Source of the DNA: Gammaproteobacteria bacterium
Lineage (GTDB): Bacteria > Pseudomonadota > Gammaproteobacteria > Steroidobacterales > Steroidobacteraceae
DNA length: 42,298 nt
Reading direction: 5' to 3'
Assembly (NCBI GenBank): GCA_027452045.1
Contig: DAIDHH010000196.1
Location: forward strand, 1-42,298
The notes under the pieces were generated by a model. That model was not told the DNA's origin. It did no database searches and saw nothing but the letters and a program-made list of their open reading frames with translations. The position numbers were made by a program, and so were the translations under genes. Shown here piece by piece: positions 7,743 through 34,548 of this stretch (position 1 is the first letter of the stretch; each line of letters begins with the position of its first letter).

Positions 7743-7754
7743 GGCCATGCGGCG

Positions 7755-7783
7755 ATGGGGCCGGGCACACAACCTGGCCCCAT
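7755..7783 (+). terminator. Hairpin terminator after the lipocalin-like gene
   Basis: ATGGGGCCGGG and CCTGGCCCCAT form an 11-bp stem with one G-U pair around the 7-base loop CACACAA. It starts 12 bases after the stop codon of the upstream gene. There is no T-run after it, as is common in GC-rich genomes, so termination efficiency is uncertain. Confidence 0.5.
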
Positions 7784-7854
7784 GCGCCGGCGCTCGAGGC
7801 GGGACCGACTCCGGTGCGCACGGCGAGTGTGCATTCCGCTCCTGGGGCAGCGAG

Positions 7855-14635: not shown

Positions 14636-17071
14636 CTATGCGCGCATGCGCGAGCCCTCGGGATCGAACGGGGGCTCACTCAGCACCGTCGCCGCACGCC
14701 GCTCGCCCAGGATCTCGATCTCGAACGCGCGCTCGTGGGTCGCGCTCGCGAGCTCGACCGGGACGTACCCCTGTGCCAGGGAGCGATCGATGCGGTGCCC
14801 GTAGCCACCGGAGGTGACCCACCCGATGACCTTGCCGTCGTGCCAGATGGGCTCATCGCCGAGCACATCGGCATCGGTGGCCTCGACAGCAAAGCTCAGG
14901 CGCCGCAGCCTGCCGCCCGTCTCGCGCTCCTTCGCGGCGGCCGGGCGGCCGATGAACTCGGGCTTGCCGAGATCGACGAAACGCTCGAGCCCGGCCTCGA
15001 AGGGTCCATAGATCGGCCGCAGCTCGCGGTACCAGGTCGGATAGTTCTTCTCGAGCCGCATGCTGAGCAGCGCCCGCATGCCAAAGAGCACGAGCCCGAG
15101 ATCCCGGCCCGCGGAGCGGATCTCCTGGTACAGCCGCCGCTGGTGCTCGGGGGTCACCCAGATCTCGTAGCCGAGCTCCCCGGTGTAGCTCACCCGGTTG
15201 ATCATCGCCGGCACATTGGCCACCTCGAAGGAGCGGTGATCCATGAACCTGAACGCCTCGTTCGAGACGTCTTCATCGGTCAGCCGGGCGAGCAGCTCGC
15301 GCGAGCGCGGACCGGCGATCGCGAGCCCGATCAACCCCTGGTCGAAGCGGCGGATGCGCACCGAGCCATCGGCGGGCAGGTGGCGCTCGAACCAGCGCAT
15401 GTGATGGATCTGCGCCTGGGAGGAGCCCCACATCATGAAGCGCTCGGCGGCGGCGCGCGCGATCGTGAAATCGCCGATGAGCTTGCCCGTCTCGTTCAGC
15501 ATCGGGGTCAGGATCATGCGACCCGCGCGCGGCAGCCTGTTGGTCATGAGCAGGGCGAGGAAGCGCTCCGCGCCCGGGCCGGTGAACTCGTACTTGGCGA
15601 AGTTCGCGATCTCGGTCACGCCGACCGACTCGTGTACCCCGAGGCATTCGGCCTTGACGTGCGGGAAGTCGTTCGAGCGGTGGAACGAGATGACGTCGCG
15701 GGGCTCCACGCCCTTCGGTGCGAACCACAGCGGCGTCTCGAGGCCCCAGCTGTCGCCCATGACGGCCCCTTCCGCCCGCATCGCGTCGTAGAGGGGGGTG
15801 GTCTGTTGGGGGCGGGCCGCGGGCAGCTCCTCGTTCGGAAAGCGGATCGAAAAGCGCCGCGAGTAGTTCTCGCGCACCTTCTCGTTGGTGTAGCGACGCG
15901 TTGCCCACTCGCCGTAGCGGGCGACGTCCATCGCCCAGACATCGAAGCCCGGGTCGCCGTTGACCATCCACTGCGAGAGCGCAAGACCCACGCCGCCTCC
16001 CTGGCTGAATCCGGCCATGACGGCGCACGCGCACCAGAATCCGGGTTTGCCCTGAACCGGACCCACGAGCGGGTTGCCGTCGGGCGAGAAGGTGAATGGG
16101 CCGTTGATGATGCGCTTGATGCCCGCCTGGCGCATCGCCGGGAAATGCTCGAAGCCGAGCTCGAGGGAGGGCATGATGCGCTCGAGATCCGGCGGCAGCA
16201 GCTCGGCGCCGAAATCCCACGGCGTGGTGCGGGGCTGCCACGGCACGCAGGCCTTCTCGTAGGTGCCGAGGACGATGCCGTTGCGCTCCTGGCGCATGTA
16301 GATCTCGGCCTTGAAGTCGATCGCGTGCGGCATCTCGCGGCCGCGCGCGCGGTTGTACTCGATGACCTCGGGCATGTCGTCGGTCACGAGGTACATGTGC
16401 TCCATCGCGAGCACGGGCAGCTCGAGCCCGACCATGCGGCCCACCTCTCGCGCCCACAGTCCTCCGGCGTTGACGACGTGCTCGGTGTTGATCGTGCCGG
16501 CGGTCGTCTCGACGTCCCAGGTGCCATTCGATCGCGGCGTGAGCGCGGTGACTCGTGTGTGCTCGTAGATTTCCGCGCCGCCGATCCGGGCCGACTTCGC
16601 ATAGGCGTGCGTGGTGCCGTAGGGGTCCAGATTGCCGTCGGCGGCATCGAGCATGGCGCCGACGAAATATTTGTCTTCGATCAGGGGCAGGAGGTCGCGG
16701 GCCTCGCGCGGACTGAGGAGCGCGGTCTCGAGGCCGAGATAGCGCGCGCGGCCGTGCGCCATCTTGAGCCATTCCATGCGCTCGGGCGTGTCGGCGAGCA
16801 ACAGGCCCCCGGAGCGATGCAGCCCGCAGGCCTCACCGGAGATCCTCTCGAGCTCATCGTACAGGCCGATGGTGTAGCCCTGGAGCTTGGCGACGTTGGG
16901 GTCTCCGTTCAGCGTGTGAAAGCCGCCCGCCGCGTGCCACGTCGATCCCGATGTCAGTTGATCGCGCTCCACCAGCACGACGTCCTTCCATCCCGCCTTC
17001 GTCAGGTGATAGAGAACGCTGCAGCCAACCACCCCGCCGCCCACCACGACCGCTTGTGCGTGAGATCTCAT
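14636..17071 (-). CDS. Dimethylglycine/sarcosine dehydrogenase-like flavoprotein (FAD + GcvT domains)
   Basis: 811 residues. The N-terminal FAD domain starts VVVGGGVVGCSVLYHL. His46 in GSTWHAAGG matches the histidine that carries covalent FAD in dimethylglycine and sarcosine dehydrogenases. The second half is a folate-binding GcvT domain (LSMRLEKNYPTWYRELRPIYGPFEAGLERFV, then a GCV_T C-terminal barrel). The family oxidatively removes an N-methyl group and passes it to tetrahydrofolate. The start at 17071 has a clean AGGAG seven bases upstream; an in-frame TTG at 17086 lies within that ribosome site. A TTATGAT (17098-17104) could be its -10. It diverges from the AraC gene, so it likely belongs to the same regulon as the methyltransferase and sox genes. 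The methylated substrate is not proven. Confidence 0.85.
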   Translation of the reverse strand: MRSHAQAVVVGGGVVGCSVLYHLTKAGWKDVVLVERDQLTSGSTWHAAGGFHTLNGDPNVAKLQGYTIGLYDELERISGEACGLHRSGGLLLADTPERMEWLKMAHGRARYLGLETALLSPREARDLLPLIEDKYFVGAMLDAADGNLDPYGTTHAYAKSARIGGAEIYEHTRVTALTPRSNGTWDVETTAGTINTEHVVNAGGLWAREVGRMVGLELPVLAMEHMYLVTDDMPEVIEYNRARGREMPHAIDFKAEIYMRQERNGIVLGTYEKACVPWQPRTTPWDFGAELLPPDLERIMPSLELGFEHFPAMRQAGIKRIINGPFTFSPDGNPLVGPVQGKPGFWCACAVMAGFSQGGGVGLALSQWMVNGDPGFDVWAMDVARYGEWATRRYTNEKVRENYSRRFSIRFPNEELPAARPQQTTPLYDAMRAEGAVMGDSWGLETPLWFAPKGVEPRDVISFHRSNDFPHVKAECLGVHESVGVTEIANFAKYEFTGPGAERFLALLMTNRLPRAGRMILTPMLNETGKLIGDFTIARAAAERFMMWGSSQAQIHHMRWFERHLPADGSVRIRRFDQGLIGLAIAGPRSRELLARLTDEDVSNEAFRFMDHRSFEVANVPAMINRVSYTGELGYEIWVTPEHQRRLYQEIRSAGRDLGLVLFGMRALLSMRLEKNYPTWYRELRPIYGPFEAGLERFVDLGKPEFIGRPAAAKERETGGRLRRLSFAVEATDADVLGDEPIWHDGKVIGWVTSGGYGHRIDRSLAQGYVPVELASATHERAFEIEILGERRAATVLSEPPFDPEGSRMRA

Positions 17072-17287
17072 GCCGACTCCTGCCAATGTGCAGCCGGATC
17101 ATAAGCGGGCGGGCCCGGATCGGGCGGGCCGGACGGGAGTGTGCCGACCCAATTGTTAGGAATTCCGGCGATTTCGCAGCGACTTCCGGACGCCCGCCGG
17201 GACGCCTCCGGCGCCTCCCGCGACGGGGTGCGGCCCGGACTCGAAGCCCCCCGGGGCGCCGGGGATGGCACCGATGCCATTGCAAGC

Positions 17288-17310
17288 GGCCGCCCGAAAT
17301 CCTAAATTCC
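17288..17310 (+). promoter_or_regulatory. Possible operator: GGCCGCCCGAAATCCTAAATTCC
   Basis: This stretch is closely matched at 18480-18501: the first 12 bases are identical, and the TTCC end is shared after a one-base gap. It lies just before the AraC start codon in the space shared with the divergent dehydrogenase gene. The second copy lies just before the methyltransferase gene. Placement at both ends of the AraC gene suggests the AraC protein's own binding site. Read on the other strand, its TTCGGGCG core also resembles the elements at 5387 and 9697, so it may instead be a dispersed motif. Confidence 0.3.
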
Positions 17311-17317
17311 AGGGCGC

Positions 17318-18430
17318 ATGCCACCGCCACCCACCGCGACCCCCGAGTCCATCGGGCGGGACTTCAGCGACGAGCTGCCCGTGGCGCCCGTGGCGCCCGA
17401 GCAGGGTGGCCTTTTCCGCGCCTTTCTGGCAGGTCCCAGCGGCACTCTGGGCGATGCGTTCGCCAATCTCGAGCGCACGCCCGGCGTGCGGGTCATCGCC
17501 CGTCACCCGCGGCGCAGTCTCCTCGGCGCCCGCATCGACTTTCCCCCGCGCGAGGGCGATGGGTACTGGGAGCTCACGCGGATCGGTGAGGACGTCTACG
17601 TGGTGGTCGCGAACGTTTCCTACAAGAGCTCGCGCCGCGAGCTCGTGCCCGGCGACGGGATGATCCAGTTCTACTTCAAGCTCTCCGGCGATCTCACACT
17701 GGGGGTGAGCCAGACCGAGCCTTTGCGGCTCAATCGGCCGAGCCTGCTCGTGTACTTCCAACCCGTGGGATTCGACATGCACGAGTGGTCCGCGCCGCGG
17801 GTGCGCGAGCGCAGCGTCACCGTCAACGTGCGCACCGACTACCTCATCGAGAACTTCATGTCCTCCGCGGCGCAGCTGCCGCCGCAACTGAGCGCGCTCC
17901 TTCAGGACTCGCCGCGCGAGTTCAACTACTGTCAGCTGCCCCTCAATTCGCGCATGTTCGAGCTCGCGGCGAAGCTCGTCGACAGCGCGTATACGGGAGT
18001 GCTCGCGCTCGTGCACACCGAGGCGCTCATTCTCGAGCTGCTGTGCGCCGCCGTTGCGGAGTTCGGTGCAGTGGCCGCCGCGCCCATCGAGCAATTCAGC
18101 GAGCACGACCTGCGCTGCCTGCACGCCGCGCGCGGGCTGCTGCTCAAGCAGTTCGCCCCGGCGCCGACCATACGACAGGTGGCGAGGGCGGCGGGCATGA
18201 GCGAAACCTCGCTCAAGCGCGGCTTCAAGAGCCTCTTCGGCGAGACCATCTTCGATTTCTCCGTGCGCTGCCGCATGCAGCACGCGCTCACTCTGCTGCG
18301 CGAGCGGCACATGCCGGTCGCGCGGGTCGCGGAGGCGGTCGGGTACAGTCACCAGACCTCGTTCGCGACGGCCTTCCACCGGCACTTCGGCCTGCGTCCC
18401 AAGGATGCGCGGGGCCATCGGACCCGTTGA
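17318..18430 (+). CDS. AraC-family transcriptional regulator
   Basis: 370 residues. The C-terminal 95 residues are the two-helix-turn-helix AraC domain: IRQVARAAGMSETSLKRGFKSLFGETIFDFSVRCRMQHALTLL, then VARVAEAVGYSHQTSFATAFHRHFGLRPKDAR. The N-terminal part (residues 55-260) is a sensor domain with an AraC-like beta barrel region (VYVVVANVSYKSSRRELVPGDGMIQFYFKL) and no recognised ligand motif. It is probably an activator of the divergent dehydrogenase gene and of the downstream methyltransferase-permease-sox genes, responding to a betaine or methylated amine; this is inferred from position only. The ATG at 17318 follows a possible operator by seven bases and has no obvious ribosome site, so the start is uncertain. 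Confidence 0.88.
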   Translation: MPPPPTATPESIGRDFSDELPVAPVAPEQGGLFRAFLAGPSGTLGDAFANLERTPGVRVIARHPRRSLLGARIDFPPREGDGYWELTRIGEDVYVVVANVSYKSSRRELVPGDGMIQFYFKLSGDLTLGVSQTEPLRLNRPSLLVYFQPVGFDMHEWSAPRVRERSVTVNVRTDYLIENFMSSAAQLPPQLSALLQDSPREFNYCQLPLNSRMFELAAKLVDSAYTGVLALVHTEALILELLCAAVAEFGAVAAAPIEQFSEHDLRCLHAARGLLLKQFAPAPTIRQVARAAGMSETSLKRGFKSLFGETIFDFSVRCRMQHALTLLRERHMPVARVAEAVGYSHQTSFATAFHRHFGLRPKDARGHRTR

Positions 18431-18479
18431 AGGCGCGTGCCCACCGCCACCGTCCCTGCGTGCGCGGGGCCTCGGGTGG

Positions 18480-18501
18480 GGCCGCCCGAAACCCAAGTTC
18501 C
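18480..18501 (+). promoter_or_regulatory. Possible operator, second copy, before the methyltransferase gene
   Basis: GGCCGCCCGAAACCCAAGTTCC repeats the sequence at 17288-17310 with small changes. Downstream, GGTATGGT (-10-like TATGGT at 18548-18553) lacks a recognisable -35, as expected of an activator-dependent promoter. The methyltransferase ATG follows at 18578 after a GAGGCGG ribosome site. Confidence 0.3.
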
Positions 18502-18577
18502 TAGCAAGCGCGCCTGAGCGCCAAGCATCGCGAATGGGCAACTGCGGTATGGTCGGCGGCACTTCTCGAGGCGGATC

Positions 18578-20107
18578 ATGAAACCCAGTCGTCGCCACCC
18601 GGGGCAGGGCAGTCGGCCGAGCGCGCAGGCTCGCCCGAGCGCCTATCGGCAGCTGCGCAATCCGTTTGCGCCGCAGGGTGTCTTTTCCGAGGACGCGGTC
18701 GCGGCGATCCACGAGAAGGCTCTGCAGGTCAACGAGACGCTCGGCATCAAGGTGCTGCTGCCGGAGGCGCGCGCGCTCTACCGGCAGGCGGGCGCGCTGG
18801 TGGACGAAGAGACGCAGATCGTGCGCATCGGGCGCGAGATCATCGCCGAGGCCCTCAAGTGCTGCCCCCGCTCCTTCAATGGCCTCGGGGGCGACCCGCG
18901 GCGTACCGTCGACTTCACGCCGGGGTCGCTCGTCTTCCTCGGGGGCTCGAGCTGCCCGAACGTCAGCGACCTCGAGCGCGGCCGCCGGCCCGGCACACTC
19001 GCGGACTATGTCGAGCTGATCAAGATCTGCCAGCGCTTCGATGTGCTGCATCTCTCGGGCAACTACACCGAGGCACAGGATGTACCGGTGCACTTGCGCC
19101 ATTACGCGGCGATGCGCGCACAGCTGACGTTGTCCGACAAGATGCCGTTCGTGCACTCGCGCGGCCGGGAGCAGGTGGAGGACGCCTTCGCCATGATCCG
19201 CCTGGCACGCGGGCTCGATGAGCGGCAGTTCCGCCAGGCGGTGTACGCTCACACCGTGATCAACAGCAACTCCCCGCGCGTGCTCGACAACTCCATGGCC
19301 CAGGGGCTGATCGATTTCGCCCGCAACGGGCAGGTGACGATCGTGACCCCGTTCTGCCTCGCCGGCGCCATGGCACCCATCACCATCGCGGGGGCCCTGA
19401 CGCTGCAGCACGCCGAGGCGCTCGCGGGCATCACCCTCGCGCAGCTGGCTCATCCGGGCGCGCCGGTGCTCTACGGCAGCTTCCTGTCCAACGTGGACAT
19501 GAAATCAGGCTCGCCCGCCTTCGGCACACCCACCCACCTGCAGGCGACCCTCGGGGCCGGGCAGCTCGCCCGCCTGGTGGGCCTGCCATGGCGGGCCGGC
19601 GCCGGCACCGCGGCCAACGTCGTCGATGCCCAGGCCGCCTGGGAGACACAATTCTCGCTGTGGGCGAGCGTGCTCGCCGGCGCTACCCTATGCATCCACG
19701 CGGCGGGCTGGATGGAAGGCGGATTGACGCATTCCTACGAAAAGCTGATCGCGGACATCGAGGTGCTGCAGATGTTCGCGGAGCTGTGCGTGGCGCCGCC
19801 GGCCGATGAGGACGCGATCGGATTCGAGGCCATCGCCGAAGTGCAGCCCGGAGGACATTTCTTCGCCGCGGCGCACACCATGGCACGCTACCGCACGGCG
19901 TTCTACGAGCCGCTGGTGGCGGATACGGCCAATTTCGGCACCTGGACGGAGCAGGGCGCGCGCACCGCGACGGTCCGGGCCCACGAGAAGTGGAAACAGG
20001 CGCTCTCGCAATACACGCCGCCGCCGGCCGCCGAGGCCTGCGCCGCGGCGCTCGATGCGTTCATCGAGCGCCGCACGAAAGAGGGCGGCGCGCCGCCGCT
20101 CTCCTGA
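18578..20107 (+). CDS. MttB-family (trimethylamine/betaine) corrinoid methyltransferase, non-pyrrolysine type
   Basis: 509 residues matching the COG5598 trimethylamine methyltransferase family. Segments include FSEDAVAAIHEKALQVNETLGIKVLLPEARALY, VFLGGSSCPNVSDLERGRR, INSNSPRVLDNSMAQGLIDFARNGQ, TPFCLAGAMAPITIAGALTLQHAEALAGITLAQLAHPG and GAATLCIHAAGW-like LAGATLCIHAAGW. There is no in-frame TAG, so it is the pyrrolysine-free class. Known members of that class (MtgB on glycine betaine, MtpB on proline betaine) move one methyl from a quaternary amine to a corrinoid protein. No corrinoid-binding protein or reactivase is encoded in the window. It starts the run mttB-permease-soxBDAG, with the permease 13 bases behind. 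The substrate is inferred to be a betaine; which one is open. Confidence 0.85.
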   Translation: MKPSRRHPGQGSRPSAQARPSAYRQLRNPFAPQGVFSEDAVAAIHEKALQVNETLGIKVLLPEARALYRQAGALVDEETQIVRIGREIIAEALKCCPRSFNGLGGDPRRTVDFTPGSLVFLGGSSCPNVSDLERGRRPGTLADYVELIKICQRFDVLHLSGNYTEAQDVPVHLRHYAAMRAQLTLSDKMPFVHSRGREQVEDAFAMIRLARGLDERQFRQAVYAHTVINSNSPRVLDNSMAQGLIDFARNGQVTIVTPFCLAGAMAPITIAGALTLQHAEALAGITLAQLAHPGAPVLYGSFLSNVDMKSGSPAFGTPTHLQATLGAGQLARLVGLPWRAGAGTAANVVDAQAAWETQFSLWASVLAGATLCIHAAGWMEGGLTHSYEKLIADIEVLQMFAELCVAPPADEDAIGFEAIAEVQPGGHFFAAAHTMARYRTAFYEPLVADTANFGTWTEQGARTATVRAHEKWKQALSQYTPPPAAEACAAALDAFIERRTKEGGAPPLS

Positions 20108-20120
20108 GGCCGGGTCCGCG

Positions 20121-21506
20121 ATGGCAAGCGCATTCCAGGCGGAACGTCACAGCATCGATTTCATTCCGCTCACCGAGCGCTACGGCACGCCCGCGAGGCT
20201 GTTCACGCTCTGGTTCAGCGTCAATCTGCACATTCTGGGTGTTGCGCTCGGCGCGCTGGGCGTCGCCGCGGGTCTCACGCTCGGGCAGGCGATCATCGCC
20301 TATGCGCTCGGCAACGCAGTCGGCACGTTCATCATGGCCGCGCACGCGGCGCAGGGCCCGCAGCTCGGCATCCCGCAGATGATCCAGAGTCGCGCGCAAT
20401 TCGGAGTTCTCGGCGCGGCGCTCCCCCTGGTGGCGGTTGTCGTGATGTACGTGCTGTACACGGCCGCGGACCTGCTGATCATGCAGGGCACGATGCACTC
20501 GCTGTTCTCACTCGGGCGCAACGGGTCGCTCGTGGCGGTTGCGCTCGCAACGCTGGTCATCGCCTACATCGGCTATGAGCTCATTCATCGCATCGGCAAA
20601 GTGATGACGTTCCTGATGAGCGCGCTGTTCGCAGCAGCCACGGTGCTGCTCATCGTGCGCCATCCGGGCGCGGCCGCCGTGGTGCCGCGACCGGCGCAAA
20701 TGGGCGCGGCGTTCTCACTCGCGCTCGCGCAGGCGGCGTCCTGGTCATTCAGCTACGGACCTTACGTCGCCGATTACTCCCGGTATCTGCCGGCGGACGT
20801 CTCGCCGGCAAGGACTTTCTGGAGCACTGCGCTCGGGTGCTTTCTCGGCTCGACGCTGATCATGGCATTCGGCGCGTACCTGGCCTCGAGCACGCCGGAT
20901 CTGGGCGCGAATCCAGCCGCCGAGGTGACCGGACTGTTCGGACCGTTGCAGCCCCTGGCGCAGCTGCTGTTGCTCGTGGCGATCGTGTACGGCAACGTCA
21001 TGAACCTGTACAGCGCCTACATGTCCAGCTCGACCATCTTCTCGGGCTTTCACCGAATGCGCAGCATGGGCAGCGCGGGCAAGCTCGCGGTGATGTCCGC
21101 CACCATGGTGGCGGCAATCACGGTGTCGATCGCCTCGGAGGGCAATTTCCAGGGCTACTTCGCCAACGTGCTGAGCGCGCTCATCTACATGCTCGTGCCC
21201 TGGAGCGCGATCAACCTCGCCGACTTCTATCTGGTGCGCAAGGGTCACTATGACATCGGCGCCATGTACGATCTCGAGGGCTGCTACGGTGCGTACCGCT
21301 GGCGTACGATCGCGGTGTTCCTGATCGGTATCGTTGCGCAGGAGCCGTTCATGAGCTTCACGTTCTATCACGGCTGGGTGGCCGCGCGCCTGGGCGCGGA
21401 CATCGCCTGGGTGCCGGGCTTTTTGATCCCGGGCGCGCTCTATGTGTGGATCGAGCGTGGCCGGGCCCTGCAACCGAGCCTCGCGCCCCCGGATTCCGCT
21501 GCCTGA
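20121..21506 (+). CDS. NCS1-family permease (purine-cytosine permease-like)
   Basis: 461 residues with about twelve membrane segments. The N-terminal IDFIPLTERYGTPARLFTLWFSVNLHILGVALGAL and the later YGPYVADYSRYLP are typical of nucleobase:cation symporter-1 transporters. The start at 20121 has GAGG nearby; the open frame extends upstream to 19806, but that part overlaps the methyltransferase gene in another frame. It lies between the methyltransferase and soxB genes with gaps of 13 and 18 bases, so it should import the substrate of that pathway. NCS1 members mostly carry nitrogen heterocycles (cytosine, allantoin, hydantoins and, as I recall, urocanate in Pseudomonas hut loci). An NCS1 protein is not the expected glycine-betaine carrier (BCCT or ABC), which bears on the substrate question. 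Confidence 0.85.
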   Translation: MASAFQAERHSIDFIPLTERYGTPARLFTLWFSVNLHILGVALGALGVAAGLTLGQAIIAYALGNAVGTFIMAAHAAQGPQLGIPQMIQSRAQFGVLGAALPLVAVVVMYVLYTAADLLIMQGTMHSLFSLGRNGSLVAVALATLVIAYIGYELIHRIGKVMTFLMSALFAAATVLLIVRHPGAAAVVPRPAQMGAAFSLALAQAASWSFSYGPYVADYSRYLPADVSPARTFWSTALGCFLGSTLIMAFGAYLASSTPDLGANPAAEVTGLFGPLQPLAQLLLLVAIVYGNVMNLYSAYMSSSTIFSGFHRMRSMGSAGKLAVMSATMVAAITVSIASEGNFQGYFANVLSALIYMLVPWSAINLADFYLVRKGHYDIGAMYDLEGCYGAYRWRTIAVFLIGIVAQEPFMSFTFYHGWVAARLGADIAWVPGFLIPGALYVWIERGRALQPSLAPPDSAA

Positions 21507-21524
21507 CGCCCCCCGCCCGCGCTC

Positions 21525-22781
21525 ATGCTCCGCTACTCCCTTTCCCGGCTCGTTCGCCATGCGCTCACGGACCGGCCCTGGTCGCGCGCCTGGCGGGAGG
21601 CGAAGCCGCGAAATCGATACGATGTCGTCATCATCGGCGGTGGCGGCCATGGATTGGCGACCGCCTACTATCTGGCCGCCAATCACGGCATCCGCCGGGT
21701 CGCGGTGCTCGAGCGCTCCTACCTTGGCGCCGGCAACGTCGGGCGCAACACGACGCTGGTGCGATCGAACTACATGATGAACGGCAGTACGCAGTTCTTC
21801 GAGTTCTCGCTGAAGCTGTGGGAAGGGCTGTCGCAGGAGCTCAATTTCAACGTGATGCTGTCACAGCGAGGGCAGATCGTGCTGGCACACTCCCCCGCGC
21901 AGATGGATGGGCTCGCCCGCCGGGGCAACACCATGCTGCTCAACGGCATCGAGGCCGAGCTCCTCGATCGGGGGCAGGTGCAGCACCTGCTGCCCTATCT
22001 GGATTACTCGCCGGCGGCGCGCTTCCCCATCGCGGGCGGCCTCCTGCAGCGGCGCGCCGGGACCGTCCGCCACGATGCGGTCGCGTGGGGCTATGCGCGC
22101 GCAGCCGACGCACTCGGGGTCGACATCATCGAAGGCTGCGAGGTCACCGCAATCATGCACGACTCGAGCGGCGCACATGGGGTCGAGACGAGCCGCGGCA
22201 GGATTCTGGCGGATCGAGTCGCGATCTCCGTCGCCGGGCACTCCTCCCAGGTTGCGGCCATGGCGGGTCTCGAGCTCCCGATCGAGAGCCACCTGCTGCA
22301 GGCCTTCGTGACCGAGCCCATCAAGCCCTTCGTCGACCACGTGATCTCCTTCGGCGCGGAGCTCTTTTACATCTCCCAGTCGGACAAGGGCGGTCTCGTG
22401 TTTGGCGGGCACATCGATGGCTTCAACAGCTTCACCCAGCGCGGCCAGTTCCCGAAGGTAGAGGGCGTGGCGCAGTGCGCCCTCGCCCTGATCCCCGGCA
22501 TGTCGCGGCTGAAGCTGCTGCGGCATTGGGCGGGCATCCAGGACATGACCCCCGACGGCGCTCCGTTCATCTGCCGCACGCCAGTGCGAAACCTGTATTT
22601 CAACGGTGGCTGGTGCTACCAGGGGTTCAAGGCGACGCCCGCGGCCGGCTGGTGCCTCGCCGATACGATCGCGCGCGATGAAGAGCATCCTCTCGTGCGC
22701 TGCTATGGGCTCGGGCGCTTCGCGCAGGGGGGCGCGAGCCTCGATGAGTATGGTCATGGCCACTGGACCTACAGGCACTGA
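21525..22781 (+). CDS. soxB: Sarcosine oxidase-like beta subunit
   Basis: 418 residues with the SoxB-specific start MLRYSLSRLVRHAL, an FAD motif IIGGGGHGLATAYYL (residues 36-50), GRNTTLVRSNY, and His183 in AGTVRHDAVAWGYARAADALG, which matches the covalent-FMN histidine of heterotetrameric sarcosine oxidases. In those enzymes the beta subunit oxidises the N-methyl amino acid at FAD and passes electrons to FMN and oxygen. Two regions differ from the SoxB I remember: SNYMMNGSTQFFEF where SNYLWDEAA is usual, and NGGWCYQGFKATP where CGWGTGGFKATP is usual. Both lie near the flavin site, so a different amine substrate is plausible. soxD follows four bases later. Confidence 0.88.
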   Translation: MLRYSLSRLVRHALTDRPWSRAWREAKPRNRYDVVIIGGGGHGLATAYYLAANHGIRRVAVLERSYLGAGNVGRNTTLVRSNYMMNGSTQFFEFSLKLWEGLSQELNFNVMLSQRGQIVLAHSPAQMDGLARRGNTMLLNGIEAELLDRGQVQHLLPYLDYSPAARFPIAGGLLQRRAGTVRHDAVAWGYARAADALGVDIIEGCEVTAIMHDSSGAHGVETSRGRILADRVAISVAGHSSQVAAMAGLELPIESHLLQAFVTEPIKPFVDHVISFGAELFYISQSDKGGLVFGGHIDGFNSFTQRGQFPKVEGVAQCALALIPGMSRLKLLRHWAGIQDMTPDGAPFICRTPVRNLYFNGGWCYQGFKATPAAGWCLADTIARDEEHPLVRCYGLGRFAQGGASLDEYGHGHWTYRH

Positions 22782-22784
22782 AGC

Positions 22785-23078
22785 ATGCTGCGCATCGAGT
22801 GCCCACTTTGCGGCGAACGTCCCTACACCGAGTATCGTTATGGCGGCGATGCAGACAAGCGCCGGCCGATGCACGGCGCCGGGGGCATCGAGGCCTGGCA
22901 CGACCATCTGTTCCTTTTCGACAACCCCAAGGGTCCGCACCGGGAGTTCTGGCAGCACGTCCAGGGGTGCCGCCAGTGGCTCCTCGTCGTGCGTGACACG
23001 GCGACCAACATCGTGGCGGAGGTGGCATTGGCGAGGGATGCGCGGGGAATGGACCGGCAAGGCCCGGGCGAACGATGA
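22785..23078 (+). CDS. soxD: Sarcosine oxidase-like delta subunit
   Basis: 97 residues, the usual size. It begins MLRIECPLCGERPYTEYRYGGDADKRRP, a SoxD signature whose CPLC pair, with later His and Cys residues (HDHLF, VQGC), binds zinc. Tail WLLVVRDTATNIV matches the family. It is a small structural subunit of the four-subunit oxidase. It starts four bases after the soxB stop, and its stop overlaps the soxA start (ATGA). Confidence 0.9.
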   Translation: MLRIECPLCGERPYTEYRYGGDADKRRPMHGAGGIEAWHDHLFLFDNPKGPHREFWQHVQGCRQWLLVVRDTATNIVAEVALARDARGMDRQGPGER

Positions 23079-26059: not shown

Positions 26060-26801
26060 GCGTCGCTCGGCCCTCGAGTCCTTGGCCCCGCCGACCGGCA
26101 AGGGTGAGGGACGACCGCTCGTCATCGGCGAGGTGCGCGGCTTCGCGCTGCTGCAGGCGGCGGCCTTCGTGGGCACCGTCGCAGCGCTCGAGCGCGCCGT
26201 GCGCTCCGCGTTGGGAGTCGATTTGCCGAAGCGCATCGATGCGCCGCGCCGGGCGAACGGGATTTGCGTGTTCAAGACCGGCCCCGAGCAGTTCCTGCTC
26301 GTGGGTCCGCAGGATGCGCAGGTGGCATCGACGGAGCACGCTGGCCTCGAGTCGAGCTCGCACCCGGCGCCGCTCCTCGCCGGGGACGCCCGGCTGCGCA
26401 GGGTCGGGCCGGAGCCGGTGAGGCCCGCGGGCGCGACGGAATTCTGGGCCGACACTCTTCGGGAGGTCGTGCCGTCCGCCATGGGATCCCTCACCTCGCT
26501 GTCCCATGGCCGCACGAGGCTGTTCCTCGAGGGAGCGGCCGCACGGGAGGTCCTGTCCACGGGCATTGCCGTGGATCTGCACCCCGAGGTGTTTCGGTGC
26601 GATGCGTACGCGCTCACCGGCCTCGAGGACACCCCGGTTCTGCTGCACCGGACCGACTCCCAAAGATACGAGCTGTACGTGCTCAGGACGTACGCGGGCT
26701 GGGTCTGGGAATGGCTGACCGACGCCGCGCTTCCGTTCGGATACGAGGTCGTCAAGAAATCCCACGCCTCTTTGATCGTTGGACCAAACGTGCGAGCCTG
26801 A
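26052..26801 (+). CDS. soxG: Sarcosine oxidase-like gamma subunit
   Basis: 249 residues, a little longer than typical SoxG. It shares the family pattern: a weakly conserved N-terminal half, then TSLSHGRTRLFLEGAAAREVLSTGIAVDLHPEVF and TPVLLHRTDSQRYELYVLRTYAGWVWEWL. It has the fold of a GcvT domain without its folate site and completes the oxidase. It overlaps soxA by eight bases. Unlike many sox operons, no glyA or purU gene is linked to it here; the next genes are hutC-hutF, on the other strand. Confidence 0.85.
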   Translation: MLERRSALESLAPPTGKGEGRPLVIGEVRGFALLQAAAFVGTVAALERAVRSALGVDLPKRIDAPRRANGICVFKTGPEQFLLVGPQDAQVASTEHAGLESSSHPAPLLAGDARLRRVGPEPVRPAGATEFWADTLREVVPSAMGSLTSLSHGRTRLFLEGAAAREVLSTGIAVDLHPEVFRCDAYALTGLEDTPVLLHRTDSQRYELYVLRTYAGWVWEWLTDAALPFGYEVVKKSHASLIVGPNVRA

Positions 26802-27082: not shown

Positions 27083-27829
27083 TCAGGCGCGCTGGTGCCG
27101 GAACCGGGCGATGAGCCGATGTTGGTCGCACGGGTAGATCAGGCGCACGTGCGTGATGCGCTGCTCATCGAGCCAGGTATTGCGCTCGATGCTCAGGCAG
27201 GCCTTGTGCCGCGGGATCTCGAGACGGCGGGCAATGGCCGCATCGGCGTTGAGCGCGCAGATCTGATGCTCGGCGTCCGTCCAGGGAATGCGTTGCAGCA
27301 GCCAGCGGCCCGGCGAGGTCCGGGAGAATCGCTCGCGTCTCGCCTCGGGCACGGCCCGCAGGTTGATCAGCCGCTCCTCGAACGCATGCGGCCGCCCGTC
27401 GGCCCGGTGCAGACCGATGAGCGAGAGCACCGGGGTGCCCGCCGTGACGCCGAGTGCGCTGGCATCGTCGGCGTTCGCGGGCCTGACCTGCCGGTCTAGA
27501 CATTCGTAGTCGTAGGTCGAGCCGGCGGCCACGAGCTCCGCCTCGATGTCGTGAATCTCCAGCACCGATTCCTGGGGCCGCGGTGCGCTCACCGTCGTGC
27601 CGGCCCGCCGTCGGCGGGTGATCAGACGCTGCTCGGCGAGTGCGCCGAGGGCCTTGCTGATGGTCATCCGGGCGCAGCCGAAGGTTCTCGCCAGCTCGTG
27701 TTCGGAGGGGAGCTTGTGGCCCGCGGGCCATGCGCCGGAGACGATCTTCTGCCGCAGGGCGTCGTAAATCTCGCGGTATCGCGGCAGGGCGCCTGAGTCG
27801 GTGGGCTTGAGTGGCTCGAGCGCAGTCAT
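27083..27829 (-). CDS. hutC: Histidine utilization repressor HutC (GntR family)
   Basis: 248 residues. A GntR winged helix covers residues 17-85 (YREIYDALRQKIVSGAWPAGHKLPSEHELARTFGCARMTISKALGAL). The UTRA effector domain follows, with PHAFEERLINLRAVPEA and the HutC-typical AEHQICALNADAAIARRLEI and ACLSIERNTW. HutC represses hut genes and is released by urocanate (or, in some enteric bacteria, imidazolepropionate too). Its ATG begins one base after the hutF stop, so the two genes share an mRNA and HutC probably represses its own synthesis through the operators at 29240-29269. A GGTCTAGACA palindrome inside the gene (27493-27502) resembles those operators. Confidence 0.93.
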   Translation of the reverse strand: MTALEPLKPTDSGALPRYREIYDALRQKIVSGAWPAGHKLPSEHELARTFGCARMTISKALGALAEQRLITRRRRAGTTVSAPRPQESVLEIHDIEAELVAAGSTYDYECLDRQVRPANADDASALGVTAGTPVLSLIGLHRADGRPHAFEERLINLRAVPEARRERFSRTSPGRWLLQRIPWTDAEHQICALNADAAIARRLEIPRHKACLSIERNTWLDEQRITHVRLIYPCDQHRLIARFRHQRA

Positions 27830-27830
27830 G

Positions 27831-29198
27831 TCAGGTGCTCTGCAGCAGCCGGGTCAGGGTGCGGCGGTAGGCCGCATCGATCCGGTCGCGCCCGATGTGG
27901 CGCCGGTTCTCGACGACGGTTCGCCCACCCGCGATGACATCGCGGATCAGAGAGCGGCCCGCGGCGAACACCCAGGTGTCGATGACGGCGTCTTCGCCGC
28001 GCCCGGCGAGGTCGGGGTGGTCGGCGTCCAGGATCAGAAGGTCAGCCCGATTGCCTGCCGCAAGGGCGCCCACCGGCAGTGCGAGCGCCTGCGCGCCGCC
28101 CGAAAGGGCGGCCTGGTACAGGCTCTCGCCGGTGGAGGGCCGTGCCGAATCCGCAAGGACATTGCGCGAGCGGCGCACGAGCCGCTGGCTGTATTCCAAC
28201 TGGCGCAGCTCGCCGGCGGCATCGAGCAGGATGTGCGAGTCCGTGCCGACCGCCCAGTGTCCCCGGGCGTCCCGGTAGGCCGCAGCCGGGAATATCCCAT
28301 CGCCGAGATTCGCCTCCGTCACCGGACAGAGTCCGGCCACGGCGCCGCTTGCGGCCAGCTGTGTCGTTTCCGTGGGCGTGAGGTGCGTGGCGTGCACCAG
28401 GCACCAGCGCGCCGTGACGCCGGCATGGCGCAGCAGCCACTCGACCGGCCGCTCGCCGCAGAAGGCGAGGCAATCCTCGACCTCCTTCACCTGTTCGGCC
28501 GCATGGATGTGCACGGGGCCCTCGGGATACTGGCGCAGCAGCGCCTGCAATCGATCGCCCGTCACGGCCCGCAACGAGTGGGGCGCGACGCCGACGGCGC
28601 GGTGCGCAGTCCGGCCCAGCCGGGTGCGCACGCGTTCGACGATCGCCGCAAACGTCTCGAGATCGGTGATGAAACGGCGCTGGCCCGGCGTGGGCGGCGC
28701 GCCGCCGAACTGGCTGGATTCATAGAACACCGGCAGCAGGGTGAGGCCCATACCGGTGAGGTCGGCCGCCTCGGCGTGGCGCAACGCGAGCTCCGCCGGG
28801 TTCTCATACGCTGTCCCCTCGGGGCTGCGATGCAGGTAGTGAAACTCCCCGATGCTGGTGAACCCCGCCTCGAGCATGTCGGCGTAGGCATACGCGGCGA
28901 TCGCCTGCACGTCATCCGGCTCCATCCGCTCGAGGAAGCGATACATCACCTCGCGCCAGGACCAGAAGTCATCGCTCCCGGGACCGAGCCGCTCGGCGAG
29001 GCCGGCCATGGCGCGCTGGAAAGCATGACCGTGGACGTTGGGCAGGCCCGCAATGGCCATGGCAAAGCGCTCATCGCCGGGGGCCGCTGGGGTCCCGGCG
29101 TTGACCCCCTGGATCACCCCCGAGCGCACCTCGATGCGCACGTTGCGCCGCCAGCCGCCCGGCAGCCAGGCGGAATCGAAGAAGAATGTCCGGTTCAT
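27831..29198 (-). CDS. hutF: N-formimidoyl-L-glutamate deiminase
   Basis: 455 residues of the amidohydrolase superfamily. The metal-binding HxH is in [15 protein letters not shown]; other active-site segments are [31 protein letters not shown] and [10 protein letters not shown]. HutF converts formiminoglutamate to formylglutamate and ammonia, the branch completed by HutG. I chose the ATG at 29198 ([16 protein letters not shown]), which matches the family N-terminus and has GAAGG upstream; the open frame extends past it into hutI sequence on the other strand. Its promoter lies in the 91-base space shared with hutI, over the HutC operators. hutC follows one base after the stop. Confidence 0.94.
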
Positions 29199-29239
29199 GG
29201 CGCGAGCCTTCGGGGTTCTCCGGGAGGGGTTCCCTGATA

Positions 29240-29269
29240 TGTCTAGGCATATTATGATTTGCCTAGACA
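29240..29269. promoter_or_regulatory. Paired HutC operators in the hutF/hutI divergent promoter
   Basis: TGTCTAGGCA (29240-29249) and TGCCTAGACA (29260-29269) form a perfect 10-bp inverted repeat around a 10-base AT-rich spacer. Each arm is itself a near palindrome (TGTCTAGACA with one change), as expected for a GntR/HutC dimer site. The two sites are 20 bases apart, on the same face of the helix. The spacer contains TATTAT, a likely -10 for hutI, and CATAAT on the other strand for hutF. Bound repressor would therefore block both directions. Confidence 0.75.
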
Positions 29270-29289
29270 AAATAGAAGGCCCGGGCTCC

Positions 29290-30492
29290 GTGCAATTCGA
29301 TCGTCTCTGGCGCAACGCGAGGTTGGCGACCCTGGCGCCGCACCGTCCAGGTGTCGGCCTGGTCGAGCGCGGCGCCATCGGCATCGCGCAGGGCCGTATC
29401 GTCTTCGCCGGCGCCGAGGCGGATCTGCCCTCTGGAGCGCTCGCGAGAGAGGTCTTCGATCTCGAGGGACGCCTGCTCACCCCGGGCCTGATCGACTGTC
29501 ACACCCATCTCGTGTTCGGCGGCGATCGCAGCCGGGAGTTCGAGATGCGCCTCGCCGGCGCCGACTATCAGAGCATCGCCAAAGCCGGTGGAGGCATTCT
29601 GTCTACGGTGCGGGCCACGCGGGCGGCGAGCGAAGATGAGCTCGTGGCCTCGGCGCTCGAGCGCCTGCGCTGCCTGCTCGCCGAAGGAGTGACGACAGTC
29701 GAGATCAAGTCGGGGTACGGCCTCGATCTCGACACGGAGCTGCGGATGTTGCGGGCCGCCCGCACACTGGGACGACAGCATCCGGTCGATGTGGCGACGA
29801 CGCTGCTCGCGGCGCACACCATTCCGCCGGATCGCGATCGGGCCGAGTACATCGAGCTCATCGAGCGCGAGCTGATTCCGCAAGCCGCGCGCGAGGGACT
29901 GGCCGAGGCCGTCGACGGGTTCTGCGAAGGCATCGCGTTCACTCCCGCGGAGATCCGCCGCGTGTTCGAGGCGGCCCGCTCGGCGGGACTGCCGGTGAAG
30001 CTGCATGCCGATCAGCTCTCGGACTCGGGTGGCGCGGCGTTGGCGGCCGGGTTCGGGGCGCTTTCCGCGGATCACCTGGAGTGGACGGGCGCGGAGGCAG
30101 TGGCGGCGCTCGCTCGCGCGGGCACCATCGCGGTGCTGCTGCCCGGGGCGTTCTACAGCCTGAGGGAGCGCCGCCTGCCGCCCGTCGAGGCGCTGCGCCG
30201 TTCGGGGGTGCGCATCGCGGTGGCCACCGACTGCAATCCGGGCACTTCCCCGCTGTTGTCCGTCCTCATGGCCCTCAATCTCGCCGCGGTGCAGTTCGGC
30301 CTCACCATCGAGGAATGCCTTGCGGGCGTCACACGCGAGGCCGCGCACGCGCTCGGCCGTCAGCGCGACATCGGCACCCTCGAGCCGGGCAAGCGTGCGG
30401 ACTTCGCCATCTGGAACGTGGAGCGGCCCGCGGAACTCGTCTACTGGATCGGCCGCAATCCTTTGTACAAGCGTGTCTGGAGGGGTGATTGA
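29290..30492 (+). CDS. hutI: Imidazolonepropionase
   Basis: 400 residues from the GTG at 29290 ([17 protein letters not shown]), with GAAGG about 12 bases upstream. Upstream in-frame starts would run through the operators. Metal and substrate motifs are [55 protein letters not shown] and [11 protein letters not shown], all in HutI order. The enzyme opens imidazolone propionate to formiminoglutamate, the substrate of HutF. It is first in hutIHGU; its stop overlaps the hutH start. Confidence 0.95.
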
Positions 30493-32030
30493 GCATCGTC
30501 GTTCTGCAGCCTGGAAAGGTGACTTTGGGCGAGTGGGCGGCCGTCTACCGTGGCGCCGGCGTCTGCCTCGACGAGTCGTGCATTGCGCCCATCGCGCGCG
30601 GCGCCGAGGCGGTCGCGCGCATCCTGGCGCGCGGCGAGCCGGTCTACGGCATCAACACCGGCTTCGGGAAACTAGCGAGCGTGCGCATCGACACGGCGGA
30701 TCTCGCGAAGCTGCAGAGCAACATCGTCCTGTCGCATTGCGTGGGCGTCGGCGAGCCCATGCCCGTCGCGGTGACCCGTCTGATGCTCGCGCTCAAGATC
30801 GCCAACGTGGCGCAGGGTGCTTCGGGGGTCAGGCCGGAGACGGTGAGGCTGATGTGCGCTCTGCTCGATCGCAACCTGACACCCGTCGTCCCGTCGCAGG
30901 GCTCGGTGGGCGCCTCCGGCGATCTGGCGCCGCTCGCGCACCTCGCGGGAGCACTGATCGGTGTCGGTGAGATCGCACTGCCCACGGGGGAGCGCTTGAG
31001 CGCGCTCGCGGCGCTCGGCGCGGCGGGACTTGCGCCCCTCACGCTCTCGCCCAAGGAGGGCCTGGCGTTGCTGAACGGCACCCAGTTCTCCACCGCGAAC
31101 GCGCTGGCGGCTTTGTTCGACATCGATACGGTGTTCCAGTCGGCGCTGGTGAGCGGAGCGCTGTCGACGGAGGCGGCCAAGGGGTCGGATACGCCATTCG
31201 ATCCGCGCATCCATGTCCTGCGTGGTCATCGCGGGCAAATCGAGACCGCGCAGGCGCTGCGCGCGCTGATGGCTGGCTCGGCGATCCGCGCCTCCCACCG
31301 AGTGGGGGATCCGCGCGTGCAGGATCCGTACTGTCTGCGCTGCCAGCCGCAGGTCATGGGGGCGGCGCTCGATCTGTTGCGCTACGCGGCGCGCACGCTC
31401 GAATGCGAGGCCAACGGGGTGTCGGACAATCCGCTGATCTTCGCGGATACCGATGAGGCGCTCTCCGGAGGCAACTTCCATGCCGAGCCCGTCGCCCTCG
31501 CCGCCGATGCCATGGCGATCGCCCTGTGCGAAGTCGGCTCGCTCTCGGAGCGACGCATCGCCATGCTGGTCGACCCGGCGCTCTCGGGTCTGCCGGCCTT
31601 CCTCACGCCTCATCCCGGGCTCAACTCCGGACTGATGATGCCGCAGGTCACCGCCGCCGCGCTCGTCTCCGAGAACAAGCAGTGCGCTTATCCGGCGAGC
31701 GTCGACTCCATCCCGACCTCCGCGAATCAGGAAGATCACGTGTCGATGGCGGCGCACGGCGCGCGCCGGCTGCACCGCATGGCGGCCAACGCCGCGGCCG
31801 TCGTCGGCATCGAGCTCATCACCGCCGTTCAGGGCTGCGACTTCTACGGCAACCTGCGCTCGAGCGCGCCGCTCGAGGCGGTGCGCAAGGTAGTGCGCGC
31901 CAGGATTGCGCCGCTCACCGACGATCGTTACCTGCACAGCGATCTTCAGGCGGCGAGCGATCTGGTGCGCAGCCGCGCGCTCCTCGAAGCGGTGCGCGGA
32001 ATGCCGCTGCCGGCACTGGTGAGCGCATGA
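30489..32030 (+). CDS. hutH: Histidine ammonia-lyase
   Basis: 513 residues. Ala142-Ser143-Gly144 in [13 protein letters not shown] forms the MIO prosthetic group, at the same positions as in the Pseudomonas putida enzyme. [43 protein letters not shown] and [14 protein letters not shown] complete the family pattern. It removes ammonia from histidine to give urocanate. The start is a TTG at 30489 overlapping the hutI stop (TTGA). The choice rests on GGAGG five bases upstream and on [16 protein letters not shown] matching other HutH N-termini; the next in-frame GTG (30519) would cut that off. A weak start codon here may tune HutH to the amount of HutI made. Confidence 0.95.
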
Positions 32031-32854
32031 GCGAGTGGCTCGAGATCCATCGGGGCGAGGCCCCGCTCATCGTGAGCTTCCCGCACACCGGCACTGAGCT
32101 GCCGGCGCAGATCGAGCCGCATCTCGTGTCGTCGTGGCTCGCCCGCAAGGATGCGGACTGGTGGGTGCACCGATTGTATGACATGGCCCGAGAGCTCGGC
32201 GCTACGACGGTGCGCACGGGCATCTCGCGGACCGTGATCGACGTCAATCGGGACCCCTCGGGCGCCTCGCTCTACCCCGGGCAGACGACCACCGGCCTGT
32301 GCCCGCTCACCACTTTCGATGGCGAGCCCCTCTATCGAGGCGGGCAGGCGCCGGATGCCGCCGCCATCGCCGCGCGGCGTGAGCGCTGGTTCGACCCGTA
32401 TCACGCGGCGCTCGGCGAGGAGCTGCGGCGCCTGAAGGCGAAGCATCGGCGCGTGGTGCTGTATGACGCCCACTCGATCCGCTCGCGCGTGCCGCGGCTG
32501 TTCGAAGGCGAGCTGCCCCATTTCAACATCGGCACGTATCGCGGCGCCAGCTGCGATCCCGCCCTCACGCGCGGCATCGAGGCCGCTTGCGAGGATCCGC
32601 GCTTCAGCCGCATCACCGACGGCCGGTTCGTCGGCGGCTGGACGACCCGTCACTACGCGGACCCGCGGCACGGCGTACACACCGTGCAGATGGAGCTCGC
32701 CTGTCGCGGATATCTCGACGAGCCGTCCCTGCCCGACGCCGGCAATTGGCCTGCGCCCTACGATCCGGGGCGCGCCGCCCCGCTGCGCGCGCTGCTCGAG
32801 CGGGCGCTGCGGCACTGCATCGATTTCGCGAATTCCCAAGGAGCGAACCCATGA
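32027..32854 (+). CDS. hutG: N-formylglutamate deformylase
   Basis: 275 residues of the N-formylglutamate amidohydrolase family. Motifs are [74 protein letters not shown] and [13 protein letters not shown]; the His and Glu residues in these bind the metal. It makes glutamate and formate, the last step after HutF. The ATG overlaps the hutH stop (ATGA) and the stop overlaps the hutU start (ATGA), so translation is coupled on both sides. Confidence 0.94.
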
Positions 32855-34548
32855 CCTCATCTCAGGCAACGCGAACCCGGGTCGACACGCGGCGGGTCAT
32901 CCGGGCGCCCACCGGGACGCAGCGCACCGCCAAGAGCTGGCTGACGGAGGCGCCGCTGCGCATGTTGATGAACAATCTGGATCCTGAGGTCGGTGAGCGG
33001 CCCGCGGAGCTGGTGGTGTACGGCGGCATCGGGCGCGCCGCGCGCGACTGGGAGAGCTACGACCTGATCGTGTCGACTCTGCGGCGCCTCGAGGCCGATC
33101 AGACGCTGCTCATCCAGGCGGGCAAGCCAGTTGGGGTGTTCACGACCCACGCTGATGCGCCGCGCGTGCTCATCGCCAATTCCAACCTGGTGCCGCGCTG
33201 GGCGACCTGGGAGCACTTCAACGAGCTCGACCGCAAGGGGCTCATGATGTTCGGCCAGATGACCGCGGGCTCGTGGATCTACATCGGCAGCCAGGGCATC
33301 GTGCAGGGCACCTACGAGACCTTCGCTGAGATGGGCCGGCGCCACTACGGCGGCTCGCTCGCCGGGCGCTGGCTGCTCACCGCGGGGCTGGGCGGCATGG
33401 GCGGTGCGCAACCGCTCGCGGCGGTGATGGCCGGCGCCTCCTGCCTCGCCATCGAGTGCCAGCGTTCGCGCATCGACATGCGGCTGCGCTCGGGCTACCT
33501 CGATCACGCCACCGAGAGCCTGGATGAGGCGCTCTCGATCGTCGAGCGCGCCTGTGAGAGCGGCAAGCCGGTGTCGGTGGGATTGCTCGGCAACGCCGCG
33601 GAAGTGCTGCCGCGGATCTTCGCGCGCGGCGTGCGCCCGAGTCTGCTCACCGATCAGACCTCGGCCCACGATCCGGTGAATGGCTACCTGCCGATCGGCT
33701 GGAGCGTCGAGCGCTGGGTGGAGATGCGCGAGCGCGACCCGCAGGCGGTGGCGCAGGCGGCGCGCGCCTCGATGGCCGCGCACGTGCGTGCCATGTTGGA
33801 TTTTCATGCGGCCGGCGTGCCTACCGTGGACTATGGCAACAACATCCGGCAGATGGCCCTCGAGGAGGGCGTGAAGAACGCCTTCGACTTCCCCGGCTTC
33901 GTGCCCGCCTACATCCGCCCGCTCTTCTGCCGTGGTGTGGGGCCGTTTCGCTGGGCGGCGCTCTCGGGCGACCCGCAGGACATCTACAAGACCGACGCCA
34001 AGGTGAAGGAACTGCTGCCTCACGACCGGCAGCTGCATCACTGGCTCGACATGGCGCGCGAGAAGATCCACTTCCAGGGCCTGCCGGCGCGCATCTGCTG
34101 GGTGGGGCTCGGCGAGCGGCACCGCCTCGGACTCGCCTTCAACGAGATGGTGGCGCGCGGTGAGCTCCAGGCCCCGGTGGTGATCGGGCGCGATCATCTC
34201 GACTCGGGCTCCGTCGCCTCGCCGAATCGCGAGACGGAAGCGATGCGCGACGGCTCGGATGCCGTGTCCGACTGGCCGCTGCTCAACGCGCTGCTCAACA
34301 CCGCCTCGGGTGCGACCTGGGTATCGCTGCATCATGGCGGTGGTGTTGGTATGGGTTTCTCCCAACACGCGGGGCTGGTCATCGTATGCGATGGCACGCC
34401 GGAGGCGGCCAGGCGGATCGCGCGCGTGCTGTGGAACGACCCGGCGAGCGGAGTCATGCGGCACGCCGATGCGGGCTATCCGGAGGCAATCGAATGCGCG
34501 CGCCGGAACGGGCTCGATCTGCCCGGCATCCTCGGCGAATTGACATAA
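32851..34548 (+). CDS. hutU: Urocanate hydratase
   Basis: 565 residues, the usual length. The urocanase signature [10 protein letters not shown] contains the active-site cysteine, here Cys416 (Cys410 in P. putida). NAD-binding [17 protein letters not shown] is at about 179-195, with [16 protein letters not shown] and [11 protein letters not shown] also present. It hydrates urocanate to imidazolone propionate, which HutI uses. The ATG at 32851 follows a strong AAGGAG. It is last in the operon; a 12-bp hairpin follows 30 bases after its stop. Confidence 0.96.

Follow-up and report, generated by a model that had tools for sequence, protein, structure and literature searches.

A conserved candidate betaine demethylation module beside the hut genes in a member of the Steroidobacteraceae

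We analysed a stretch of 42,298 nucleotides (hereafter, the window; contig DAIDHH010000196.1, assembly GCA_027452045.1) from a gammaproteobacterium of the family Steroidobacteraceae, in which genes for a putative N-demethylation pathway lie directly beside a full set of hut genes. The initial annotation read both as one route, along which hercynine (N-alpha-trimethylhistidine) or another methylated histidine would lose three methyl groups and enter Hut as histidine. On balance, and with modest confidence, we favor a different explanation: a self-contained, corrinoid-linked module for three-step betaine demethylation, most likely running through dimethylglycine and sarcosine, that came to lie beside hut by rearrangement. 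The adjacency itself is probably not functional. Of the original interpretation, the conserved three-step module, the atypical MttB-type methyltransferase and the placement of the NCS1 permease are supported, whereas the link to histidine is not, given that several relatives carry module and hut genes apart.

Gene content and conservation of the module

Every gene named in the initial annotation was recovered by Pfam and NCBIfam scans, and all eight module genes, as well as the six hut genes, are open frames in the window (Table 1). The dimethylglycine-dehydrogenase-like (DMGDH-like) protein combines FAD oxidoreductase and GcvT domains, has human dimethylglycine dehydrogenase (5l46) as its best PDB match and carries the motif STWHAAG, whose histidine we take to link the FAD. 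Subunits A, B, D, and G of the heterotetrameric sarcosine oxidase family are all encoded in the window, with SoxG recognized via Pfam only. From the NCS1 gene through soxG, the genes follow one another on the plus strand with small or no spacing.

A search for MttB across 99 related genomes returned matches at E ≤1e-60 in 50 of them, and a unit including the NCS1 gene was present in seven (G000, G049, G021, G003, G045, G017, and G013). In the first five of these, which are same-genus genomes, the order DMGDH–AraC–MttB–NCS1–SoxBDAG is fully readable (MttB of G021 appearing as two overlapping matches), while in G017 and G013 the unit is cut by contig ends and partly readable. Because this unit recurs in seven genomes and is readable in full in five, the module is conserved. 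Gene calls came from a home-made gene finder, which mis-calls hutI and low-GC loci, and names given to genes of relatives (MFS, TonB, flagellar, and SoxG on contigs C21 and C133) come from a family scan where one is cited and otherwise from visual inspection or resemblance to genes of the window.

The corrinoid partners are encoded outside the window, on contig C133 of the same genome. This contig carries genes for a B12-binding MtgC protein (PF02310/PF02607), a pterin-binding MtgD homolog (88.6% identity), a DUF1638 protein, MTHFR, a further protein with an MTHFR C-terminal domain, and a RamA-like activase with RACo domains, so the genome holds the MtgC, MtgD, and RamA partners of an MtgBCD-type system. 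Conserved gene order and these partners support the earlier proposal of three N-demethylations by MttB, the DMGDH-like enzyme and SoxBDAG; the substrates, like the transport step, the regulation and the electron acceptors, are what we infer. In the proposed scheme, the NCS1 permease would import a carboxylated quaternary amine (a betaine), from which MttB would pass the first methyl group to the corrinoid protein and, via the MtgC/MtgD/RamA-like set on C133, on to tetrahydrofolate. The DMGDH-like enzyme would then take the second methyl group and SoxBDAG the third, both oxidatively and onto tetrahydrofolate, with the AraC-family protein as the putative regulator of the unit. The most likely route would start from glycine betaine, or from another betaine whose breakdown joins at dimethylglycine, and run through dimethylglycine and sarcosine to glycine.

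Seven PF06253 (MttB) genes and no fewer than three Sox sets are present in the genome. A further related unit, located on C133 (L054, 966-10707), comprises an MttB 78% identical to that of the window, SoxBDA of a CYGGFK type, a GMC oxidoreductase gene and an MFS gene (the latter assigned by eye), with like arrangements in L050, L051, and L052. A third set, on contig C21 (L247, 735-7736), pairs an MtgB of the S. meliloti 4yyc type with GTGGFK-type Sox genes and has counterparts in L251, L252, L256, and L257 (genomes G003, G045, G049, and G017). In L188, a gene for a homocysteine S-methyltransferase (PF02574; 13937-14860) comes after MttB and DMGDH, which recalls the link of MtgE to methionine synthesis.

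Position of the module relative to hut

All six hut proteins pass their NCBIfam cut-offs. The hutC and hutF genes run leftward and face soxG, and hutI, hutH, hutG, and hutU run rightward. Because hutC–hutF converge on soxG, the hut genes make up a locus with a repressor gene of their own rather than the tail of the sox operon; a single transcription unit from MttB into hut is ruled out by the same opposite orientation. Two exact palindromic HutC-like sites lie between hutF and hutI, and a search of the window allowing one mismatch added one site, inside hutC (27493), and none at the module, all of these sites being predicted from sequence. The Pseudomonas HutC consensus is given as TGTA-N2-TACA in the part of PMC12977541 available to us.

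Table 1 Features of the window, with positions counted from its first nucleotide
Feature	Position	Strand	Evidence and remarks
LysR regulator (GcvA-like)	7747..8763	+	60% homolog in L189 and L358
2OG-Fe(II) oxygenase (HalD family)	8851..9642	+	PF23169; HxD...H pattern by eye
TonB-dependent receptor	9876..12500	+	L043, L045, L047 likewise have TonB genes near DMGDH
DMGDH-like FAD/folate oxidoreductase (DAO + FAO_M + GCV_T)	14636..17086	-	Pfam; best PDB match 5l46, 612.7 bits
AraC-family regulator	17318..18430	+	PF12833; divergent from DMGDH-like gene
MttB-superfamily corrinoid methyltransferase, non-pyrrolysine	18578..20107	+	PF06253, 612.8 bits (cut-off 25)
NCS1-family permease	20121..21506	+	PF02133; trees
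SoxB-like beta subunit, GGWCYQGFK type	21525..22781	+	TIGR01373, 607.5 vs cut-off 529.45
SoxD-like delta subunit	22785..23078	+	PF04267
SoxA-like alpha subunit with GcvT domain	23075..26059	+	TIGR01372, 1231.8 vs cut-off 1164
SoxG-like gamma subunit	26052..26801	+	PF04268 passed; TIGR01375 95.7, below cut-off 143.95
hutC repressor	27083..27829	-	TIGR02018, 279.2 vs cut-off 220; convergent with soxG
hutF formimidoylglutamate deiminase	27831..29198	-	TIGR02022, 624.2 vs cut-off 413
hutI imidazolonepropionase	29239..30492	+	TIGR01224, 460.4 vs cut-off 298
Two HutC-like sites, TGYCTAGRCA	29240..29269	.	Exact palindrome matches between hutF and hutI
hutH histidine ammonia-lyase	30489..32030	+	TIGR01225, 664.2 vs cut-off 539
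hutG N-formylglutamate deformylase	32027..32854	+	TIGR02017, 398.6 vs cut-off 279
hutU urocanate hydratase	32851..34548	+	TIGR01228, 952.3 vs cut-off 375

The module adjoins hut in G000, G049 and, with respect to hutC, G021. In two other same-genus genomes the unit and hutH occupy different contigs (C19 and C83 in G003, C8 and C45 in G045), with the flanks of hut read on both sides; in G017, the module and hut pieces both stop at contig ends. Across 246 order-level genomes, SoxB had matches at ≥72% identity in 13 places, whose position we compared with that of hutH. The two were linked in two genomes (G000 and G240) and apart in seven—on separate contigs in G003, G045, G181, G207, and G192, and on one contig in G043 (109 kb) and G272 (134 kb)—and a contig end lay near the module in the remaining four. 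Among relatives of MttB (80 loci of at least 591, at 53-69% identity; 53 of the 80 spanning at least 20 kb), a DMGDH-like gene was present in 58 loci and a hut-like gene in none; five plasmid loci of this kind were likewise free of hut genes. SoxA and SoxB counts across the 80 loci were set aside because they contain cross-hits to DMGDH. Of the 28 genomes tested for hutU, 25 had the gene, 24 of them with a score over the cut-off, and the three lacking it are 62-84% complete; those with hutU include G041 and G048, in which MttB gave no match at 1e-60. The tie between module and hut on which the initial annotation was built is loosened by these separations; the adjacency appears to be local, and a joint methylated-histidine pathway, albeit possible, is not supported.

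The hut flanks tell a similar story. Those of the window are the same as in G003 and G045—uvrA, a zinc-ribbon gene, a SPOR-like gene, hutUGHI, hutFC, a radical-SAM gene, cobT, cobS, cobU and a ferredoxin reductase gene (those without a family scan named by eye)—except for a block between hutC and the radical-SAM gene. In the window, 21.7 kb separates these two genes, in G045 their ends are about 10 bp apart, and in G048 the distance is about 0.9 kb. The block begins after position 5331 and is longer than the initial annotation described, with the module forming part of it; the cobU, cobS, and cobT-like genes at 1.7-4.0 kb are usual hut neighbors and lie outside. The simplest reading is that this block was inserted, in the G000/G049/G021 lineage, next to a hut locus of greater age, and a block of about 21.7 kb placed between hutC and its usual neighbor in one sub-lineage would account for the present position of the module. 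Loss or movement elsewhere may be the alternative, the direction of the rearrangement being our reconstruction. The longest word shared by the block ends is 8 bases.

Besides the module, the block holds an unassigned open reading frame, a TPR-protein gene and the genes for the LysR regulator, the 2OG oxygenase and the TonB receptor. GcvA-like LysR homologs adjoin DMGDH in other genomes. HalD-family oxygenase genes recur near the module, beside TonB genes, in L360 (332-1147; 66%) and L044 (315-1106), and a LysR gene stands beside the oxygenase gene in both the window and L044.

Candidate substrates and rival explanations

Close homologs of the oxidative enzymes occur beside choline genes in G272, a genome of a sister genus, where a choX–choW fusion, choV, MtgB, SoxB, SoxD, SoxA, SoxG and DMGDH form a single run. 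Identity to the window proteins is 73% for SoxB, 64% for SoxD, 63% for SoxA, 33% for SoxG and 80% for DMGDH; the fusion and choV pass the choline NCBIfam cut-offs, and the MtgB is 80% identical to the glycine-betaine-type MtgB on C21. The window and G272 share both the motif STWHAAGGFHTLNGDPNVAKLQGY of the dehydrogenase and GGWCYQGFK in SoxB. Because close homologs with the same motifs lie in a run of choline genes, the simplest inference is that these DMGDH-like and SoxB enzymes serve dimethylglycine and sarcosine. The window SoxB has CYQGFK in place of the canonical GTGGFK of TSOX, which fails as proof of a non-sarcosine substrate given that the same motif stands beside the choline genes. 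The hutH gene of G272 is 134 kb from the end of DMGDH and 140 kb from SoxB. This comes close to the finding that the initial annotation had named as fatal to its own proposal, namely close homologs with no hut genes nearby, except that the neighbors are choline genes rather than glyA/gcv. On the near side of the run lie carnitine-dehydrogenase-like and branch-B NCS1 genes, and an MtgC homolog follows about 19 kb beyond.

Several observations weigh against the dimethylglycine–sarcosine route or against a merely local adjacency, beginning with the methyltransferase. MttB is a 509-aa open frame without an in-frame amber codon; because it has no in-frame stop, it lacks a pyrrolysine codon, and it scores below the TIGR02369 trimethylamine cut-off. 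With 2qne and 4yyc it shares 34-36% identity, and it groups with neither type, falling instead into a separate 33-row clade (support 100/100). Docking and modelling predict that Y94, N199, R309, and H345 of DhMtgB bind glycine betaine, according to the accessible part of PMC6855144. At these positions the window MttB has S, N, R, and H; three residues are kept and Tyr94 is replaced by Ser, so that the full predicted set is absent. The predicted glycine betaine-stacking Tyr occurs in no aligned member of the clade, which has S/A/C/G there and conserves N, R, and H at the other three positions. In addition, the MtgB on C21 is of the 4yyc type (733 bits), has all four predicted residues and comes with its own GTGGFK-type Sox genes; because the genome carries this MtgB and Sox set, a second set for glycine betaine would be redundant. 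The residue alignment and the separate MtgB agree with the earlier hint that MttB differs from the usual glycine-betaine enzyme. Given its own clade, the Ser at Tyr94, the MtgB on C21 and the seven PF06253 genes, a betaine other than glycine betaine may well be the substrate of the window MttB.

It is conceivable, albeit in our view unlikely, that the module as a whole demethylates such a betaine—one that is not a histidine derivative and has a bulkier side chain or one of another kind—while its DMGDH-like and Sox enzymes accept a broad range of N-methyl amino acids and the proximity to hut is incidental. The substitution at Tyr94 alongside retained N, R, and H, the canonical MtgB with Sox genes in the same genome, the related C133 unit adjoining a GMC oxidoreductase gene, and the MttB-relative loci, with their frequent DMGDH-like and missing hut-like neighbors, would all fit this. 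However, SoxB and DMGDH are 73-80% identical to those beside the choline-transport genes of G272, and the Tyr94 prediction is, in the text of PMC6855144 at hand, a docking model and not an experiment.

Further points against the favored explanation come from the carrier and from one relative. The window NCS1 lies outside the carnitine/choline/Sox-linked branch, as the initial annotation had hinted, and beside a hut-linked branch, 5 of whose 11 fetched loci (≥45% identity) are inside hut loci. A larger tree makes it sister to this branch (96/92, with long branches flagged by the tool), and in a smaller tree the join is weak (80/45); in neither does it sit inside the branch, the place expected of a counterpart of HutTu (PA5099), which we take to be an NCS1 carrier. 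The second point is G240, where SoxBDAG, DMGDH (82%), LysR, MttB (55%), MFS, AMP-ligase, and hutH genes lie on one strand and a lone hutH is 3 kb from the MttB of a related module (L358, 3-5795; L366). No other hut gene was present in the 7 kb read beyond this hutH, the single one found in the genome, and flagellar genes (by eye) follow a few kb beyond. Moreover, the distance to hut is not readable in the four genomes with a contig end near the module (G117, G277, G282, and G270).

The histidine route, in which NCS1 would take up hercynine or another N-methylated histidine and three demethylations would yield histidine for the neighboring hut genes, we judge quite improbable. It draws on the preserved adjacency in G000 and G049 (in G021, to hutC), on the hut-related sister branch of the carrier, on the changed MttB pocket in a genome with a separate canonical MtgB, and on the lone hutH of G240, which the AMP-ligase and MFS genes part from MttB. 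Genomes in which the module is unlinked still hold hut, so unlinking alone is compatible with the chemistry. Against it stand the separation of module and hut in G003, G045, and five more of the 13 genomes, the homologs beside choline genes in G272, and the lack of a HutC-like site at the module within the window. With the window left out, G240 amounts to one proximity in seven resolved lineages, with a rough chance of 4-5% (5-7% if ten lineages are counted), and as it was noticed after the fact it is suggestive only. An elaborated form, in which a remodelled-pocket MttB, paralogous DMGDH/Sox enzymes and a hut-related NCS1 lead from hercynine to Hut, and the window block and the G240 hutH represent separate steps towards a joined locus, seems to us just as doubtful. 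No corrinoid-dependent or three-step demethylation of hercynine was found among literature titles and abstracts, a coverage outside which preprints and most subscription papers fall.

The mere presence of an NCS1 carrier, which the initial annotation took as a pointer away from betaines, is weak evidence of that kind and was rejected as a general argument, since branch-B carriers adjoin carnitine-dehydrogenase-like, DMGDH, and Sox genes. Such pairs with carnitine-3-dehydrogenase-like genes occur in L046 (16058-19143; below the NCBIfam cut-off, 529.7 vs 592), L244 (7507-10592), and L263 (3387-8380; so annotated), which suggests that NCS1 carriers of that branch serve carnitine or related quaternary amines. 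The neighbors of the window's own NCS1 subclade are mixed (allophanate hydrolase, hisD-like, and hisC-like genes), and a class-wide search for close relatives of the carrier hit 1 of 369 genomes, its own. A group of GntR, TonB, hisC-like aminotransferase, and NCS1 genes recurs in L229 (4505-12147) and L227 (6492-12244); in G002, it runs into a hutH (85% identical to that of the window) on a contig other than that of hutU.

Relation to described systems

The Sox complex of the window resembles heterotetrameric sarcosine oxidase (1vrq, 2gag) in having four subunits and in keeping both the KHD/RHD histidine region and the lysine of GFK, these residues presumably having functional roles; it differs in that CGWGTGGFK is replaced by GGWCYQGFK in SoxB. 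MttB shares with Desulfitobacterium MtgB (2qne, 9yce) the PF06253 family, the absence of pyrrolysine and the predicted N199, R309, and H345, and departs from it in overall sequence (34% identity) and in the change of the predicted Tyr94 to Ser. As for the carrier, the window NCS1 occupies a branch sister to the HutTu urocanate carrier (PA5099; PMC12977541, as far as the available text goes) and hut-locus NCS1s, whereas it belongs to another subclade than the latter and is 38% identical to the hut-linked NCS1 of L229.

The nearest described pathway is MtgBCD of Ruegeria pomeroyi, which demethylates glycine betaine; its authors note that a genome may carry as many as seven pfam06253 genes and suggest other methylated substrates (PMC12478193, here and below in the portion available to us). 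Common to both are an MttB-family enzyme, separate cobalamin-binding MtgC and pterin-binding MtgD proteins, RamA and DUF1638, with demethylation of dimethylglycine and sarcosine predicted as later steps. In contrast to R. pomeroyi, the window MttB is from a distant clade and is clustered with DMGDH, Sox, and NCS1 genes, NCS1 replaces the BCCT carrier, and the corrinoid partners are on another contig. Eubacterium limosum also has MttB paralogs (MtpB, MtcB, and MtyB), each acting mainly on a betaine of its own and all sharing corrinoid partners, likened here by description, not by sequence; unlike the organism studied here, E. limosum is an anaerobic acetogen, and DMGDH/Sox steps do not figure in the passages of PMC8604678 considered.

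MttB paralogs without an assigned substrate are common in aerobic proteobacteria, and with seven MttB genes and at least three Sox sets, the present genome is a good place to match such a paralog to its betaine. More generally, evidence from relatives that neighboring genes can move separately takes away most of what supports a pathway inferred from gene neighborhood.

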